Part shown: positions 4,888 to 18,249 of the stretch, piece after piece
How the letters are laid out: every line of letters starts with the position of its first letter
Numbering within the stretch: the first letter of the stretch is position 1
Source of the DNA: a virus
DNA: 53,072 bases
Virus record (IMG/VR): IMGVR_UViG_3300007535_000007
Span: 1 to 53,072 of that record
Strand: one strand, 5' to 3'
Notes under the pieces: model-generated
Seen by the model: the letters and a program-made list of their open reading frames with translations, nothing else
Databases searched by the model: none
What the model was told of the DNA's origin: nothing
Position numbers and translations under genes: made by a program

Positions 4888-5613
4888 ATGGCACGAGTAA
4901 ATAAGAAGCGTGGTGCTTCACCACGAATTGTTCATATTCAAGAGTCCACACCTCAAACAGATAGAAAAACAAAGGTGGAACTTATTCCAAGAAATGTATC
5001 TCAAGAAGAGTATGTTACTAATCTATATAATTTTAATAAAAGGATTGTCTTTGCAATAGGCCCAGCTGGAACAGGTAAGACCTACCTTGCAGTCCAAAAA
5101 GCAATTCAAGATTATAAGAATAAACGAATCAATAAGATTGTGATTACTCGTCCGGCGGTTTCAAATGGAGAAAGCCACGGTTACTTACCTGGAGACTTGA
5201 ACCAGAAAATGGAACCCTGGACCCGCCCAGTGTTCGATGTCTTTGAAGAATACTACAGCCCTAAAGAAGTAAAACAGATGCTAGACGAGGGCATTATTGA
5301 GATTGCCCCGCTTGCGTATATGCGTGGTAGAACCTTCAAAAATTGTATGGTAATCTTAGACGAAAGCCAAAATACAACACCTGCTCAAATGAAAATGGTG
5401 CTAACAAGAATAGGCGAAGGTAGTCGTCTGCTTGTCACTGGCGACCTTCGCCAGTCCGACTACAAGGATAGCAAGAACGGACTATATGATTTCTTTATGC
5501 GAATGGAACAATCGACCTCTGATATGATTGCTGTTACAAGGTTTAGCACCAATGACATTGAGCGAGATGAGATTGTGACCGAAGTGTTGCGGTTGTATGG
5601 TGAGGATGATTAG
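4888..5613 (+). CDS. phoH: PhoH-like ATPase
   Basis: 241 residues. Walker A GPAGTGKT at 58-65, VITRPAVSNGE at about 85-95, Walker B VILDES at 155-160, and TGDLRQSD at 179-186 give a complete PhoH/RhlB-type P-loop domain. PhoH-like proteins are widespread in marine and T4-like phages; they are RNA-linked ATPases of unclear role in infection. AAAGGG lies about 7 bases before the ATG. It is divergent from the ART-like gene, across a 170-base AT-rich gap with only a weak sigma70-like match (TTGAAT-16-TATATG around 4750-4780), and ends four bases into the convergent gene. Confidence 0.93.
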   Translation: MARVNKKRGASPRIVHIQESTPQTDRKTKVELIPRNVSQEEYVTNLYNFNKRIVFAIGPAGTGKTYLAVQKAIQDYKNKRINKIVITRPAVSNGESHGYLPGDLNQKMEPWTRPVFDVFEEYYSPKEVKQMLDEGIIEIAPLAYMRGRTFKNCMVILDESQNTTPAQMKMVLTRIGEGSRLLVTGDLRQSDYKDSKNGLYDFFMRMEQSTSDMIAVTRFSTNDIERDEIVTEVLRLYGEDD

Positions 5614-5942
5614 AAGTTAGAAGGATAACGCCAACTTTTGTTCCAATCAAACTGAATTGTTTCTCCACATAGTTGGCAAGGCATTGTGTTAGGTGGGAAT
5701 ACGAGTCTGCGTGTGTTCATTTCGACTTCGTGTAGGCCATGATGCGATTTTTCGCATCTCCCGTCGAGAATGACAAAGATATTCTCATTGAGCCCTATAC
5801 GATAGTCGTCATCACCGTGCTTCACTATCCAGGCGATGTCTTCATTGGCTTCATCACCAAGATCGGCGTGTTCAAGAATATACCTAGCACGAGCATGTGG
5901 CCCAGCCAACTCAAAGAGAAATTTTTGTTTATCATTCGGCAT
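5610..5942 (-). CDS. small unknown protein
   Basis: 110 residues with a lone CQLC pair near the C-terminus (about 93-96) and a CEKSHH segment in the middle, which could make a zinc site but is not a family I recognise. Follows guaC by two bases and converges with phoH. Confidence 0.75.
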   Translation of the reverse strand: MPNDKQKFLFELAGPHARARYILEHADLGDEANEDIAWIVKHGDDDYRIGLNENIFVILDGRCEKSHHGLHEVEMNTRRLVFPPNTMPCQLCGETIQFDWNKSWRYPSNF

Positions 5943-5944
5943 AG

Positions 5945-7063
5945 TTATTGGTTAGTTTCATAAACTGACAAAGATTCATTTGTCTGGCGGTGTGTCATTA
6001 TAAAAGTTGTGCGCCTTGATAGCTCTTTCAGCTTGCGACTCCCAGTATAGGTGCATGCCGACCTTACGCCGCCGAGAATATCCTGCAGGGTACCGGCGAC
6101 TGGACCACGATAAGGAACAAGAACTCGCTTACCTTCACTGGCACGATACTCTGCGAGCTCGCCGCTGTGTTTTTCCTGGGCGATCTTCGATGACATGCCG
6201 TAGAATTCCATATACTTCCGCTCCGCGTCTAGTGTGTCGAGAGCAACCCCGTTATTACGAATAACCTCAGATGTCTTATGCCACTCGCTAATAATCTCAC
6301 CACCGCACTCGTCATGTCCAGCCAACATGCCACCGAGCATGACGAAGTCGGCACCAGCACCAAACGCTTTCGCAACGTCGCCGGGGTTGGTGCAACCACC
6401 ATCAGCGATGATGTGACCGCCCAGCCCGTGTGCTGCATCCGCACATTCGATCACCGCCGATAGCTGCGGGTAACCCACACCAGCCTTCTTGCGGGTAGTA
6501 CAAACGCTTCCAGGACCAATCCCAATCTTAATCATATCTGCACCAGCTAGTATCAGCGCCTCGGTCATGTCTGCTGTCACTACGTTGCCTGCAATAAGGA
6601 CTCGATCCACTCCAATTATTTCTCGAAGCTTTTTTACAGATTCTACGAAATTTTCTGTATAACCGTTCGCCACATCGAGACATACATAAGAGACGATCGG
6701 GACGCGATCTAGAATCTTCTGAAGGTTTTCAAAGTCAGATTTAGAGGATCCAGTTGATACGGCAACATCTCCAATCCAATCCGTTGCCGTAAATCCGTTT
6801 GTTGCATTTCCCCATTCCTCTACTGAATAATGTTTATGTATGCAGGTAAACATGCGGTTCTTATGTAATGCCTTTGCCATTTCAAACGTGCCGACGGTGT
6901 CCATGTTTGCTGCCATGATAGGGATTCCGTTGTAGACGGTTGTTGAATGTCGAAATCGAAATTCGCGAAACAGATCAACTTCCTTACGAGATACTAATGT
7001 GCTGCGCTTTGGACGAATGAGCACATCAGTATAATCTAGTTTTGGGTCGTTGTCAATTCGCAT
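5945..7063 (-). CDS. guaC: GMP reductase
   Basis: 372 residues, close to the 347 of E. coli GuaC and similar along its whole length. The catalytic loop [12 protein letters not shown] contains Cys188; [26 protein letters not shown] and FYGMSS follow in the family order. GuaC converts GMP to IMP with NADPH, recycling guanine nucleotides. The start at 7063 is chosen because AGGAGGA lies seven bases upstream and [10 protein letters not shown] matches the known N-terminus; a longer start at 7099 would add 12 residues. It overlaps the previous gene by 28 bases. It lacks the CBS domains of IMP dehydrogenase. Confidence 0.95.
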
Positions 7064-8868: not shown

Positions 8869-8897
8869 ACTATAACATCATTTCTCGCCCCAGTCAA
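8869..8897 (-). promoter_or_regulatory. sigma70-like promoter
   Basis: TTGACT (8897-8892), 17-base spacer, TATAGT (8874-8869) on the minus strand, inside the last codons of ung. Drives the 8852 gene after a short leader with GGAGG. Confidence 0.55.
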
Positions 8898-9528
8898 TGG
8901 GCGTTTCATTTTTCTGACGTAAAAAATCGTTCGTCTTGCTGAATGGACGACTACCGAAGAATCCACGGTAGGCGGAGAGTGGTGATGGGTGCGCAGCCTT
9001 TAAGACACAGTGGCGGGCGCTGTCTATCATCGTCTCATACCGCTGCGCCTTCTTGCCCCATAGGATGAAGACGATGCCGTCGCGGTCGTTTAGAGTTTCA
9101 ATCACCTCCTTCGTTAGCTCGTCCCACCCTAGATCAAGATGCGATCCAGATCTGCCTTCTATGACGGTAAGACAGGTGTTGAGGAGGAGGACGCCTTGTT
9201 CCGCCCAGTCAGTAAGGTCGCCGTTACTTCTAGTTACTCCGACGTCTGTTTCAAGTTCTATGAAAATGTTTTGTAGAGACTTAGGTAACGGCGACACGTT
9301 CTTTTCAACTGAGAAGGCTAATCCGTTCGCGTGTCCTTTTGTTGGATAAGGGTCTTGTCCTAAAATACAAACCTTTACATTGTTCAACGGCGTTTTATCA
9401 AAAGCGGACATAATATTACTTACCGCTGGTAAGATACTTTCACCATTATTCATGTCTTTCACGAGATGTTCGACGATATCCTTTTTATAGATATCACTCT
9501 TAAAGAATGGCAAGTCAGTCCAGTTCAA
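8878..9528 (-). CDS. ung: uracil-DNA glycosylase, family 1
   Basis: 216 residues, usual length. Water-activating loop GQDPYP at 57-62 (Asp59), LLLNTCLTV near 114-122, and the minor-groove loop HPSPLSAYRGF near 179-189 are intact. It removes uracil from DNA, so this phage's genome presumably contains thymine rather than uracil, consistent with its own thymidylate synthase. Confidence 0.96.
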   Translation of the reverse strand: MNWTDLPFFKSDIYKKDIVEHLVKDMNNGESILPAVSNIMSAFDKTPLNNVKVCILGQDPYPTKGHANGLAFSVEKNVSPLPKSLQNIFIELETDVGVTRSNGDLTDWAEQGVLLLNTCLTVIEGRSGSHLDLGWDELTKEVIETLNDRDGIVFILWGKKAQRYETMIDSARHCVLKAAHPSPLSAYRGFFGSRPFSKTNDFLRQKNETPIDWGEK

Positions 9529-9532
9529 AAGA

Positions 9533-9925
9533 TTAGTCCATTGACCATGCGCAATCTATCACTCGAAGATCATCTGGGTCAACTTCATAGTGATTATAAA
9601 ACACGGTGCTATAGTCTCGAAATTTCCACCCGTTTTCTTCTGTATAGCCCTCTGATATCAAATGTTGATAAACATCATCGGGCGTGACGTATGTTCTTCC
9701 TCCAAGAGATTGAATAAACGTCATCTTGTTTTTTAGATATTTACATGCCAATTCTTCTTGGAAAATCTGACAGAGCAAAGATAGTTTTTCATCTGATGAT
9801 AAACTGTCGACCTTGTCAAAAAGATCCGTTCTATCTTGAAACCCGGCTTTTTTCCAAGCTAGTTGAGTTCCGATAGCTTTCAGTTGACTGTCAGGAATAA
9901 AGCATTTCTTCTTGGTATTACTCAT
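9533..9925 (-). CDS. unknown protein; possible small clamp-loader subunit by position
   Basis: 130 residues from MSNTKKK; the ATG overlaps the end of the clamp-loader ATPase gene by eight bases (ATGAGTAA), so the two are coupled. In T4 the large subunit gene 44 is followed directly by gene 62, the small subunit. The sequence, mainly helical, shows no obvious similarity to gp62, so this is a suggestion from gene order only. Confidence 0.7.
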   Translation of the reverse strand: MSNTKKKCFIPDSQLKAIGTQLAWKKAGFQDRTDLFDKVDSLSSDEKLSLLCQIFQEELACKYLKNKMTFIQSLGGRTYVTPDDVYQHLISEGYTEENGWKFRDYSTVFYNHYEVDPDDLRVIDCAWSMD

Positions 9926-10844
9926 TTGACAGCAATTCCAACTCACATAGACATGCAGACAGATTAATCTCTGGGTCGGCAACCATTGTATGATTGACTA
10001 GTGCATTTCGAATAATGAGAATAGATTTCATCTGCTTCTCGTCACTATCGCCCCAGTATTCGAGGTGCTCGTAGAAGTGGCGATATACATCCTCATATTC
10101 TTCCATCGGCACCTGTTTGCATATCAGCTGCCTTGCTTCTTTAATTTTTCCTTCACGAAAGAGCGCAACCATTTGTAGTTTATATTCGCTGTCGCCCAAT
10201 TCTTCCGTATGAGGTTTCTCTAAATGCCCTGTCTGAGAATTTTGTTGGCTAAGACCGATGCATTTTCTCATATCAGGATAAGTAGACTCTACATATAAAT
10301 CAAGCGTATCGAGATCAAACTCTACACCTTCCTCAATGAGGATGTTGGCAACTCTTGCTGTGAATTCGGTACGGTCAAGCTTCTCGATATGAAAACCTTG
10401 GCACCTGCTATGAATAGCTGGGATAATCTTATGAGGATAATTGCAAGTTAGAATAAAGCGGCAACTATTGCTGAACCGTTCCATAACACCGCGTAAAGCA
10501 GCCTGAGCATTAGGACTGAGATAATCGGCCTCATCTAATAGCACATACCGAAAGTCACTAAATGCCATTAATGATGCGAAGTTGGTAATACGATTACGAA
10601 CTTCTTCCACACCGTTTTCTGTCGAGCCGTTGATGAACATAATATCACCGGGATCAACACCCAATTCATTCAGTAGCACTTTGGCGAGTGTGGTCTTACC
10701 TGTTCCGGCGGCACCGCTAAATAGAAGATGCGGAATGGCACCTGATTGTAACCAACTTCCAACTTGGTTCTTTTGTTCGTCATCTCTAAAGACATAGTCT
10801 CCCATCTTTTGTGGTCTATGCTTCTCTACCCAAAGTTCTCTCAT
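9918..10844 (-). CDS. sliding-clamp loader large subunit (gp44/RFC-type AAA+ ATPase)
   Basis: 308 residues. Starts LWVEKHRPQKMGDYV, typical for RFC/gp44. Walker A SGAAGTGKT at about 43-51, Walker B LLDEAD at 102-107, sensor 1 LTCNYP at about 132-137, and the arginine-finger SRC motif at 146-148 are all present, with a C-terminal helical collar. It opens the sliding clamp and loads it at primer ends during replication. GGAG precedes the ATG. Best single indicator of a T4-like replication system in the window. Confidence 0.93.
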   Translation of the reverse strand: MRELWVEKHRPQKMGDYVFRDDEQKNQVGSWLQSGAIPHLLFSGAAGTGKTTLAKVLLNELGVDPGDIMFINGSTENGVEEVRNRITNFASLMAFSDFRYVLLDEADYLSPNAQAALRGVMERFSNSCRFILTCNYPHKIIPAIHSRCQGFHIEKLDRTEFTARVANILIEEGVEFDLDTLDLYVESTYPDMRKCIGLSQQNSQTGHLEKPHTEELGDSEYKLQMVALFREGKIKEARQLICKQVPMEEYEDVYRHFYEHLEYWGDSDEKQMKSILIIRNALVNHTMVADPEINLSACLCELELLSNE

Positions 10845-11259: not shown

Positions 11260-11787
11260 TCAAGAGTAACGCGCAGCAAACTCTACTGGGCATTCGTCTG
11301 CAACCATAATGAAAGGGTCTGGCCACTCAACTCCCCATAGGGTTACTTCTTCACCGTCAGAATTTAAAATTGTCATACCACGAGTCCAACGCCCGTGTTC
11401 TACCAAAACCCACTTACCCGGTGCTAGCTCATCGTCATGTACATCAGGACCAATGGCATAAATTTGTGCCCATCGAGGACGAACGCCCTCGCTCTTTCTG
11501 TTGTCGTCTGTCAGAACAATACCGCCTTTAGTGAGCCGCTCGCCCTTCTCCATATTCCAAATCAAAATCTTATTGTTTATTGCTTTCGCTTTCATCTGTG
11601 CGTGTTCCTCTAGTAAGTATGATAATAGTTCGGGATTAATTTCAGGATCTTTAAGGATCGCATGACACATTGTCGCTTCCCGTTTTTCGGGCGGTAATGA
11701 TTGAAGATCTTTACATAACTGAGTAGTCTTTTCTTTAGATCTATTTTGGGTCTCTAATAGACTGACTATGTATTCTAGACTATTCAT
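11260..11787 (-). CDS. GroES-like co-chaperonin with extra N-terminal helical domain
   Basis: 175 residues from the ATG at 11787, which overlaps the previous stop by eight bases. Residues about 1-75 are helical. The C-terminal about 95 residues read like a GroES/T4 gp31 barrel: LTKGGIVLTDDNRK with a mobile-loop-like segment, QIYAIGPDV, GKWVLVEHG, and a final EEVTLWGVEWPDPFIMVADE strand pair. T4 gp31 replaces GroES to fold its capsid protein in GroEL; a similar role is likely. The helical N-terminal extension is unusual. No GroEL is seen in the window. Confidence 0.6.
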   Translation of the reverse strand: MNSLEYIVSLLETQNRSKEKTTQLCKDLQSLPPEKREATMCHAILKDPEINPELLSYLLEEHAQMKAKAINNKILIWNMEKGERLTKGGIVLTDDNRKSEGVRPRWAQIYAIGPDVHDDELAPGKWVLVEHGRWTRGMTILNSDGEEVTLWGVEWPDPFIMVADECPVEFAARYS

Positions 11788-12025
11788 TAAAATATCGACG
11801 TGGTATATCTTGTAACCCATCCAAAACCTGTGCAATCGTCTTTTTAGGTAGCTTGGTGCTGTTATGCAACAAAACGACAATTGCTTCGTATTGCAGCCCC
11901 GATGCCATTAACCCTTCCAGCACGGCCTGCATCTTCTTCACATCATCGTGCAAGCGGACAATCGACTCATATTTTTCAAATGTGCCGTCTAGACGCTTTA
12001 CGAATTCTGTCTTCGGTTCAATCAT
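11780..12025 (-). CDS. unknown small protein
   Basis: 81 residues, mostly helical with a heptad-like middle (VRLHDDVKKMQAVLEGLM). Its stop overlaps the GroES-like start and its ATG abuts the previous stop, placing it in the operon 12.0-11.3 kb. Function unknown. Confidence 0.75.
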   Translation of the reverse strand: MIEPKTEFVKRLDGTFEKYESIVRLHDDVKKMQAVLEGLMASGLQYEAIVVLLHNSTKLPKKTIAQVLDGLQDIPRRYFNE

Positions 12026-12384
12026 TAATCGCTCTTCTTCTTTCTTGATGAGGTTTTCTTGACCTCGATAGAACCGTCTTCCATCGTAACTTCTTCATAG
12101 CTCGTTCCATCTTCACGAGTTTTGATTTTGCCTTCAACCTTGCCAGCAGGCTCTTCTCGGTCTACAGTTGGCTTTGGACGGACCGAGCCTTTTGTTACCT
12201 GCTTGGTGGCTTTATGATAAGGCGCCACACGCTCGGAAACCGGTTGAACAATGCGACCGCCGCGGACCTTATCTCCACGAGCATTGACACCCATGTTACC
12301 AGATGCAATAGTCTTATCATTTTCCATTCGTATCTCGTCCATGTTAACGAGTTGCCCTTTGGCTGTTCTATATGTTTTTCCCAT
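12025..12384 (-). CDS. conserved-looking basic phage protein
   Basis: 119 residues. The first 50 (GKTYRTAKGQLVNMDEIRM, then NARGDKVRGGRIVQP) look like a small protein I associate with T4-like phages but cannot name; the rest is Lys/Glu-rich, ending in a basic RKKK tail, and is probably disordered. Starts within the end of the YdcH-like gene. Confidence 0.75.
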   Translation of the reverse strand: MGKTYRTAKGQLVNMDEIRMENDKTIASGNMGVNARGDKVRGGRIVQPVSERVAPYHKATKQVTKGSVRPKPTVDREEPAGKVEGKIKTREDGTSYEEVTMEDGSIEVKKTSSRKKKSD

Positions 12385-12547
12385 TTCTATTCTCCAATTC
12401 CTTTATCTCATCTTTTAGTAAAAGACGTTTATGCTTCATCGTATTTAGTTCATCATCAGATGCGTAGTTATTATAAGCTTCGGATATTTCTTTATCTAAC
12501 TCTGCATGTTGCCTCTTTAATTCTCCCAAATACTCGACGGTATGCAT
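12368..12547 (-). CDS. YdcH/DUF465-like helical hairpin protein
   Basis: 59 residues, reading ...LGELKRQHAELDKEI... then NTMKHKRLLLKDEIKELE. This is the DUF465 (YdcH) pattern: an antiparallel helical hairpin with H-x-x-L-D-x-x-I and a conserved LK-x-x-x-L-x-LKDEI block. Function of the family is unknown. The gene overlaps the next one by 17 bases in another frame. GGAG is present upstream. Confidence 0.7.
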   Translation of the reverse strand: MHTVEYLGELKRQHAELDKEISEAYNNYASDDELNTMKHKRLLLKDEIKELENRNGKNI

Positions 12548-12556
12548 AATGTTCTC

Positions 12557-13087
12557 CTATTTTAAAAATTCCTCAATCGGAAGTTCGTATTTTAAACTAT
12601 TGATTTTATGTACGCCCAACAGATATAGCGTATACGATGCAACGCTGGACCCACGCCCAACGCCCCATATAATATCTTTCTCCCTCATATAATCGACCAG
12701 GTAGGCCAGAAACTGAAGGACTGGAATGAGCTGTCGTTCTTCGAAAAGCAACATTTCAGCCTCCACTCGTTGCCTCTCATCGTCTGTCTTGCAGCGACTA
12801 AGAACCAGGTCACGAATGTCCATCGCCTTATATCTTTCTGGGATCCGCCAATCACCAGCCCGGTCTGCATGGTAGGTCTCGGCGTCCAGGCCATCCTCGA
12901 CCGGTGACCGCACCCTGGTGTCACGACCGAGCACCTTCTCCGACCATCTGTTGAATCTCGCCCTTTCATCTTCATCTACCACAACACAACCATCAAGGCG
13001 ATGCCCTCGGAGACAGGCGTCAACACCCTCCGCGACCCCAATCAGAGCATTCCCATACTGATCGATTTTTACTTTTCGGGCTTCCAT
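12557..13087 (-). CDS. DNA polymerase III alpha-subunit (DnaE) fragment-like protein
   Basis: 176 residues. The last 70 match the part of the C-family polymerase palm that precedes the active site: helical FLAYLVDYMREKDIIWGVG, then GRGSSVASYTLYLLGV, then LKYELPIEEFL. In DnaE the next motif holds the catalytic Asp pair (DFDIDF), and here the protein ends just before it. There is no PHP domain. It therefore cannot polymerise; it may bind nucleotide or primer, or interact with the host polymerase. The reading frame is intact and embedded in an operon, so it is not an obvious decaying pseudogene. Confidence 0.65.
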   Translation of the reverse strand: MEARKVKIDQYGNALIGVAEGVDACLRGHRLDGCVVVDEDERARFNRWSEKVLGRDTRVRSPVEDGLDAETYHADRAGDWRIPERYKAMDIRDLVLSRCKTDDERQRVEAEMLLFEERQLIPVLQFLAYLVDYMREKDIIWGVGRGSSVASYTLYLLGVHKINSLKYELPIEEFLK

Positions 13088-13722
13088 GTATCCATTGTAA
13101 TGATGTCTGCTTCATTTGTCAAGAACGCCTTTTCAATCTCTTTCAAAGGGTCGCCTGCGACTAACTCAGCAAAATATTCATCCTTGCTATCTTCTTTTGT
13201 GAAGTCAACCGTTTCAATCGTCTCTCGTTCCCACCAGGGCTTTTTATAGGCTGCTTCTACACCCAGATATTCAATGCCAGGGAGCAATCCATCTAAATCA
13301 CCGGCGACCATCCGCTTGATGTTTCCTGTATCGCTGCTCCAAAGGGTGACATTTACAATTAGCAGATTGTTTCCGACAATTGCTCGTATTTTTGAAAGAA
13401 TTAATGATGCTACTAGAACATCGTCTGGCTCCCCTGGAGACTTAAAGAGGACGTTGTCTACTTCTTCTTCAAGAAGGTGAACAATGTCTGAATCATTATT
13501 AATGAGGATGGTATCATTTAATGCAATTTCCATCCATGCCTTAATCTTGCCAAAACCAAGAGCCGCAGATTCTACAGATTTTTCCGTATGCGGCTTAGGT
13601 GCCACAACAACCTCAAGATTAAATTCACATGGTGTAATATGAGTATTGATAATACGAGTAGCAGGAAATGTGTGTGGCAAAGTTACAATTGTATGAAACG
13701 GTCCAAGATCATGACTCGTCAT
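13069..13722 (-). CDS. unknown protein
   Basis: 217 residues, mixed alpha/beta, beta-rich first half. I recognise no motif. Overlaps its neighbours on both sides (14 and 19 bases), so it belongs to the operon carrying the DnaE-like fragment. Confidence 0.75.
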   Translation of the reverse strand: MTSHDLGPFHTIVTLPHTFPATRIINTHITPCEFNLEVVVAPKPHTEKSVESAALGFGKIKAWMEIALNDTILINNDSDIVHLLEEEVDNVLFKSPGEPDDVLVASLILSKIRAIVGNNLLIVNVTLWSSDTGNIKRMVAGDLDGLLPGIEYLGVEAAYKKPWWERETIETVDFTKEDSKDEYFAELVAGDPLKEIEKAFLTNEADIITMDTWKPEK

Positions 13723-15631: not shown

Positions 15632-15922
15632 TTACTGTATTTGCTTTGCGATTTCTTTCTGTGTTGCTCGACGCTGTTTATTGAGGAAAATTCGAGTCTC
15701 TCGATTTATACTTTCTCGCATATACCAACCAGCATCGATTGATTGAGAGACAGTTCCGCCAAAGATTGCAGCTCCTACTACCGTGCCGATTGCATTAGGA
15801 ATGGAAGAAACGATATCTGAGCCCGTGTCTCCCACATGCTGCGCCCCATGTCTAGCATCATTTGAAACGGTAGCGCAACCGGACATTGCGATGATCGCTA
15901 TTAATAACAGTTTATTTCTCAT
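15632..15922 (-). CDS. lipoprotein with glycine-zipper segment
   Basis: 96 residues from MRNKLLLIAIIAMSGC. A short signal peptide ends in a lipobox (AMSGC, Cys at about 16), so it should be lipidated and placed in a membrane facing the periplasm. The middle (IGTVVGAAIFGGTVSQSIDAG) is a glycine-zipper-like hydrophobic stretch; the end is basic. Might act on the host envelope or in lysis/superinfection exclusion; not an identifiable spanin. The start overlaps the macro-domain gene. Confidence 0.75.
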   Translation of the reverse strand: MRNKLLLIAIIAMSGCATVSNDARHGAQHVGDTGSDIVSSIPNAIGTVVGAAIFGGTVSQSIDAGWYMRESINRETRIFLNKQRRATQKEIAKQIQ

Positions 15923-16379
15923 CATATAACCATAGCGTGACATTGATGTTTGCATCGGAGAAGCTGTTTTTCATCATGTTTATAATCGTGTCTCGATTGC
16001 CGCCACCGAGTCCGCCGCCAACGAGCGGCATATGAAGATCGGCACAAGATACGATGCCTGATTGTGCTATCGCGGCGCTCTCGTTGAACACCTTCTGAAG
16101 TGCGTTGTAGTCCACATAGATATTATCGTCTCTGCCAAATAGGTGTTGCGTGATCCCGTTCAATATGACCAGATTATCAGTTACTGGTGCTACTACCACT
16201 TCGCCAAGATTCAAACCGTGTCGATTGTGCTGGTTGCGGTAGATGGCATACGCCTCTGGGTATTGCATGGCGATAATACGAGCAACGCCGCTACCCATGA
16301 CACCTTGCGCATTACAGCCATGTAGAATATATCCTTCCTTTGCTGTGAACAGATCGCCATTCTGTATTTGAAAACTCAC
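15912..16379 (-). CDS. macro-domain protein (ADP-ribose binding/hydrolase)
   Basis: 155 residues, one complete macro domain. HGCNAQGVMGSGVA at about 20-33 is the adenine/ribose-binding loop with Asn, and PLVGGGLGGGN near 118-128 is the phosphate loop. Macro domains bind ADP-ribose and often remove it from proteins or from ADP-ribose-1''-phosphate. The same window has an ART-like protein, so it may reverse, read or protect from ADP-ribosylation, or counter an ADP-ribose-based defence. Confidence 0.9.
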   Translation of the reverse strand: MSFQIQNGDLFTAKEGYILHGCNAQGVMGSGVARIIAMQYPEAYAIYRNQHNRHGLNLGEVVVAPVTDNLVILNGITQHLFGRDDNIYVDYNALQKVFNESAAIAQSGIVSCADLHMPLVGGGLGGGNRDTIINMMKNSFSDANINVTLWLYDEK

Positions 16380-17739: not shown

Positions 17740-18249
17740 TTAGATTCGTAGCCCCATACCTTTCATTGCCAATAGGACTTCTGCGTTACCTTTTGCATCA
17801 TTTACTGGGTGATGATCATGTTTTGTCTTACGAAGATGCTTGAAACTCGAATACATGTCTTTTTGCATGCCTTTCCAAATATCGTTGATATTTCTGCTGC
17901 TCCAACCGAACGGGTTTTTGCCAAGATACCGATGAAAATAATAGTTGATAAAACTCCAATCATAGCCGTTATTATCGGAGAAGAATATCAATCGACCTTT
18001 TCGATTCTCTTCTAACCAGTCTGCGAATCTCTGCATGGTCACCGCAGGGTCATCGAAGGCAAGGTGCTCTTCTCGACTAAACCCACTAACTGCCAATGCC
18101 TGCGGTACCCATTCTGTACTAATTGGTGCGGTCGTACCATAGAAGGTGCGCACAATTGGGTCTTCCACAATGACCGCACCAAAACATACCATACTATATA
18201 GCCCGGGGACTTGCCCATCGCTTTCAACATCTACTACTATACCAGTCAT
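17740..18249 (-). CDS. DEDD-type 3'-5' exonuclease
   Basis: 169 residues. ExoI VVDVESDGQVPG at about 5-16 (Asp/Glu pair), ExoII FSDNNGYDWSFINYYF near 89-104, ExoIII HDHHPVNDAKGNAEVLL near 142-160 with the DEDDh His. It is a stand-alone DnaQ-like exonuclease for single-stranded DNA or RNA; T4-like phages encode similar ones. Substrate unknown. Confidence 0.85.
   Translation of the reverse strand: MTGIVVDVESDGQVPGLYSMVCFGAVIVEDPIVRTFYGTTAPISTEWVPQALAVSGFSREEHLAFDDPAVTMQRFADWLEENRKGRLIFFSDNNGYDWSFINYYFHRYLGKNPFGWSSRNINDIWKGMQKDMYSSFKHLRKTKHDHHPVNDAKGNAEVLLAMKGMGLRI

Follow-up and report, generated by a model that had tools for sequence, protein, structure and literature searches.

The short open reading frame (ORF) analyzed here very probably encodes the NTP-binding, N-terminal palm half of a minimal C-family polymerase that is split between two genes and rebuilt from their products. 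We refer to this protein as half A and to its catalytic partner as half B. In C-family polymerases, GxGRGS is the NTP-binding motif and the aspartates of DxDxD are catalytic. Half A carries R107, E111, GxGRGS, and an EF end, half B carries DxDxD, HxxG, KxD, RPxK, and KSHxxxY-type motifs, and at the level of motifs the two together make up the conserved core of the C-family palm and fingers. What looked like a puzzling "dead" fragment would thus become half of an enzyme, with a partner gene that can be named in 62 phage records.

The stretch of DNA in which half A was found (the window) is a virus record of 53,072 bases and is itself a fragment. A preliminary description of it had recognized part of a Pol III alpha (DnaE) palm, and family searches bear this out. 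PF07733 (DNA_pol3_alpha) matches half A residues 100–175 over positions 19–94 of its 260, far above chance (42 bits, with the cut-off at 23.9; E 1.1e-10), and phrog_11127 covers residues 6–176 (E 1.7e-48). The PF07733 match is the only one to that family in the whole window and the sole Pfam match in the ORF, where no PHP domain was found. A half A profile also matches residues 320–393 of E. coli DnaE (E 1.8e-6). Both GRGSSVASYTLYLLG and LKYELPIEEFL are present in the ORF, as is the GxGRGS palm region (GVGRGSS, residues 142–148). The last residues, ...YELPIEEFLK, fall just before the position of the DnaE catalytic aspartates, which are absent from the half A chain of the window; the ORF does stop where the preliminary description had placed its end. 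The C-terminal EFLK was considered as a clamp-binding tail and rejected, since it aligns to FERFL of DnaE itself.

The residues that half A retains are strongly conserved. G142, G144, R145, G146, and S147 do not vary among aligned relatives (11 of 11 and 71 of 71). E111 is just as constant in the set of 71, where R107, E173, and F174 are kept in at least 90% of the sequences. Nucleotide binding, which had been suggested earlier, is plausible from the sequence, with the NTP-binding GxGRGS region intact and conserved. Residues 1–80 (window 12848–13087, minus strand) are variable and lie outside the Pol III fold matches.

The short form is widespread among phages. Proteins of the same size occur in 121Q, MIJ3, Phosso, SCTP-2, Atu_ph07, Vibrio 2.275, XaC1, and RAS14, whose genomes range from 288 to 490 kb, and also in a smaller carrier, Alishewanella phage Slickus01 (141,644 bases). 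A pattern-based scan found at least 599 relatives among viral contigs, and a scan of genome contigs found eight. We compared 99 half A ORFs, the window's included, after excluding five DnaE-type ORFs of more than 320 aa (L011, L012, L014, L015, and L205). Counted from the first G of GxGRGS, the chain ends exactly 35 residues on in 88 of the 99 and 36–40 residues on in the other 11. The shared short form and end point agree with the earlier view that this is a selected fragment, and the sequences indicate that half A is not a recent truncation. No full-length DnaE, which the preliminary description had named as evidence of such a truncation, was found among the close relatives; longer DnaE-type proteins were seen solely as distant matches (L011, L012, L014, and L015). 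One of the 99, L019, is an ORF of 307 aa; its N-terminal 150 residues match only themselves among the ORFs of the 99 loci, and the extra length is probably an artifact of start-codon choice.

Where, then, are the catalytic aspartates? PF07733 matches one piece per genome in eight of eight records, one of which has an additional sub-threshold match. The finger-domain family PF17657 was matched in six of ten records, above the cut-off once, and each match falls in an ORF encoding about 200 aa, which is half B. Half B proteins are about 190–210 aa long and start at the DIDID motif or up to about 15 residues before it. All six members examined belong to phrog_11778 "DNA polymerase," and all six have PF17657 finger matches. 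Among 107 half B ORFs, which include copies of one gene and whose starts were set by a first-ATG rule, DxDxD is kept in every one, and in 86 of them it starts no later than residue nine. The other motifs are nearly as constant (HxxG in 106, KxD in 103, RPxK in 104, and the KSHxxxY type in 106), and 13 of 65 non-redundant half B ORFs have MPDIDID as their N-terminus. In full-length DnaE, the order of motifs across the joint is FERFLNPERVTMPDIDIDF, and by that order half A ends about five linker residues before the Met of half B. The sequence match of half B to solved DnaE structures is weak, with a best E-value of 0.0053.

An alignment search found half B in 18 of 28 records in total: nine of nine named phage genomes (six of which supplied the alignment), eight of 17 IMG/VR contigs, and one of one assembled genome. 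It was not found in the 53-kb window fragment or in the other nine half A-bearing IMG/VR contigs, which are possibly incomplete, and a broader half B profile matched none of the ten records without a match. In the 288,815-base contig L048, half A is present and half B was undetected, reflecting either an incomplete contig or a real absence. The half B gene is often found in the company of replication genes: in 121Q and CBB it comes shortly ahead of those for the primase and gp41-like helicase, in MIJ3 it precedes dnaG, and in Slickus01 it is near the RFC small subunit and primase/helicase genes. Its product commonly carries no annotation beyond "hypothetical" or "membrane protein."

The two halves occur together almost without exception. 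Among 50,697 phage records, some of which are duplicate depositions, half A was found in 62 (E 1e-5) and half B in 63 (E 1e-3, a count obtained with two different queries). By accession comparison, 62 of 62 half A records are also half B records; two of the 62 are Alishewanella phages, and in OQ508957 and OP752703 half B was shown by an alignment search of those genomes. Half B without half A occurs only in PP728206 (109,507 bases), which is probably partial. The genes themselves are far apart, with spacings in relatives of 11–182 kb: 11 kb in Slickus01, 14 kb in RAS14, 31 kb in 121Q, about 43 kb in PA5oct, 116 kb in SCTP-2, and 182 kb in Atu_ph07. Neither fusion nor adjacency of short half A and half B was seen in 210 fetched stretches, none of which contained the two at once. 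The metagenomic contig L205 is unique among the 210: its half B (199–810) is followed 4.6 kb on by a larger DnaE-type polymerase (5384–6766) that runs for 461 aa up to where the stretch ends and has a DVDID motif of its own. Evolutionary distances of A and B are correlated (0.82), and this could be explained by shared ancestry alone because the value is no higher than those with the clamp loader gp44 (A/gp44 0.83, B/gp44 0.78).

Predicted folds place the two proteins side by side on DnaE. AlphaFold2 models, built for each half separately from the window and from IMG/VR or genome-contig sequences, have a mean pLDDT of 88.5 for half A (window protein) and 91.7 for half B (121Q protein). The top Foldseek matches in the PDB are Pol III alpha chains for both halves, at E-values above 0.001. 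With VIA-align, which also gives some unrelated chains at Z of about 2–3, half A residues 82–176 superpose on residues 280–393 of E. coli DnaE (2hnh; Z 10.4, rmsd 2.1, 93 aligned), and half B residues 13–212 superpose on residues 399–784 (Z 7.8, rmsd 5.2, 192 aligned). Structural matches of half B are moderate overall (Z about 6–9, rmsd 3.4–5.9). In these alignments of predicted folds, the DnaE regions covered by half A and half B adjoin without overlap.

Half A sits in a conserved gene neighborhood (Table 1). The operon overlap reported in the preliminary description is present, and the cluster of the overlapping gene, whose product has no Pfam family at E 0.01, lies directly upstream of half A in 53 of 99 loci. 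Downstream, a phrog_14844-type cluster is the next gene in 81 of 99 loci and a GroES-like cluster the second gene in 82, and a gp44-like clamp loader cluster is nearby in 82. In the window, the DUF465 gene sits between half A and the phrog_14844-like gene; its sequence cluster is found in the window only, among the 99 loci. A check for a frameshifted DnaE remainder in this downstream region, proposed earlier, found none, the interval being occupied by the DUF465 protein. The GroES-like domain is C-terminal (residues ~95–170) in an ORF of 206 aa, so the protein may be extended at its N-terminus or its true start may lie further in. Elsewhere, the window encodes a uracil-DNA glycosylase family protein (8878–9528, minus strand; PF03167, E 5.6e-18) and a Macro-domain-like protein (15912–16379, minus strand; phrog_335 "phosphatase," E 1.2e-33, with Pfam Macro below its cut-off).

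Table 1. Half A and selected neighboring features, in window coordinates.
Feature	Coordinates	Strand	Basis or remarks
T4 gp44-like clamp loader AAA+ ATPase	9918..10844	-	PHROG
GroES-like co-chaperonin gene	11260..11880	-	PHROG and Pfam
phrog_14844-like small protein	12025..12384	-	PHROG
Small DUF465 protein, 59 aa, directly downstream of half A	12368..12547	-	Pfam
Half A of putative split C-family polymerase	12557..13087	-	176 aa, ATG start; phrog_11127, N-terminal palm
GVGRGSSVAS motif of half A, residues 142–151	12635..12664	-	Alignment of relatives
Upstream gene, 3' end overlapping the half A start by 19 bases	13069..13722	-	ORF list
DnaQ-like 3'-5' exonuclease candidate	17740..18249	-	Weak: phrog_192, E 1.3e-5; PF16473 below cut-off

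These observations suggest a mechanism. Half A and half B would bind each other, and one active site would be rebuilt across the joint between the ...EFLK end of A and the start of B, often MPDIDIDF. The pair may then polymerize nucleotides, giving the phage a second polymerase in addition to its family B replicase, perhaps for one strand, for gap filling, or for repair. A family B DNA polymerase is encoded in nine of nine named genomes, and none was found in the 53-kb window fragment. Because the window is a fragment in which half B was not found, the pair is something that we infer for this virus, and we predict that it carries half B outside the 53 kb. Our fullest reading, put forward tentatively, is that A and B (about 370–390 aa together) form an active two-chain C-family polymerase, perhaps the smallest, with an active site to which one chain brings the triphosphate-binding motif and the other the catalytic aspartates. 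Such an enzyme would be a long-standing, regular second polymerase across a wide phage clade that includes genomes of about 141 kb, and it might depend on the phage co-chaperonin and clamp loader, whose genes neighbor that of A.

Alternatively, the two halves may assemble into something that is no longer a DNA polymerase, such as a nucleotidyltransferase, a primase-like enzyme, or a regulatory nucleotide-binding complex derived from an old palm. The small size of the pair, in which the PHP, clamp-binding, and C-terminal regions of DnaE are missing, would fit such a role, as would the family B polymerase already present in these phages, and a literature search with most subscription journals outside its scope returned no functional or activity test of a split polymerase. 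However, DxDxD, KxD, and the finger motifs are almost always kept, as expected for polymerase chemistry, and we regard the loss of that activity as rather unlikely.

The preliminary description had favored a dominant-negative inhibitor, and a half A acting on host Pol III in this way, or as a decoy, would indeed resemble host DnaE while being devoid of catalytic aspartates. This is not supported by the genomes, in which all of the half A phage records hold a complementary catalytic half. The contacts of DnaE with the clamp and tau lie in the C-terminal half of the protein, outside the region that half A resembles (residues 280–393), and a search of PADLOC gave no defense-system match. We consider an inhibitor very improbable. 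That half A is what is left of a DnaE that was once full-length and is decaying in this phage only, as a single DnaE-like piece without a neighboring remainder might suggest, is already refuted by the nearly identical end point of the short form in all 99 ORFs kept, by a neighborhood conserved in most of those loci, and by the hundreds of relatives in viral contigs.

The reading of half A and half B as parts of one polymerase can be set against several known systems. Bacterial DnaE (2hnh, 5lew) shares the palm fold and motifs of both halves but is one chain of about 1,160 aa (5fku), whereas the phage proteins are two short chains. Bacterial DnaE also has PHP, clamp-binding, and C-terminal domains. 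In Alicyclobacillus phage KKP_3916 (L011, 4119–6472), a DnaE ORF comprising PHP domain and palm ends near the same joint as half A, with a LAGLIDADG endonuclease gene after it. The break here is of another type, and this DnaE is probably interrupted by an endonuclease or intein.

Members of the half A family have been noted before. In Pectobacterium phage CBB, the 172-aa CBB_328 was reported as a truncated DNA polymerase III alpha (PMC5259590). It is a member of the half A family; the passages of that paper dealing with it name no partner, and half B in the CBB genome is FDG95_gp287. In Atu_ph07, gp316 was named a predicted Pol III alpha subunit (PMC6102473). Closest of all, Iyer et al. (2021) described, in "group 2.2" jumbo phages, a class with genomes over 200 kb, a minimal Pol III alpha split into an NTP-binding N-terminal half and a Mg2+/DNA-binding C-terminal half, encoded by distant genes and accompanying a family B polymerase (PMC7824862). 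Judging from the genes which that paper assigns to the group, the named phages used here probably belong to group 2.2. The 2021 prediction can now be put to a direct test in an E. coli phage with 121Q genes 56 (A) and 16 (B), and the present results prompt the question of what use a second, split polymerase is to a phage that already has a family B replicase. In the scheme of Iyer et al., the window ORF is the counterpart of the N-terminal half and sits on a 53,072-base fragment with half A only. The split itself was thus already published in 2021, and the window adds one member; beyond the parts of that paper concerned with the split, the present work supplies the exact joint, the near-complete co-occurrence of the halves, their presence in genomes of about 141 kb, and the GroES/gp44 neighborhood.
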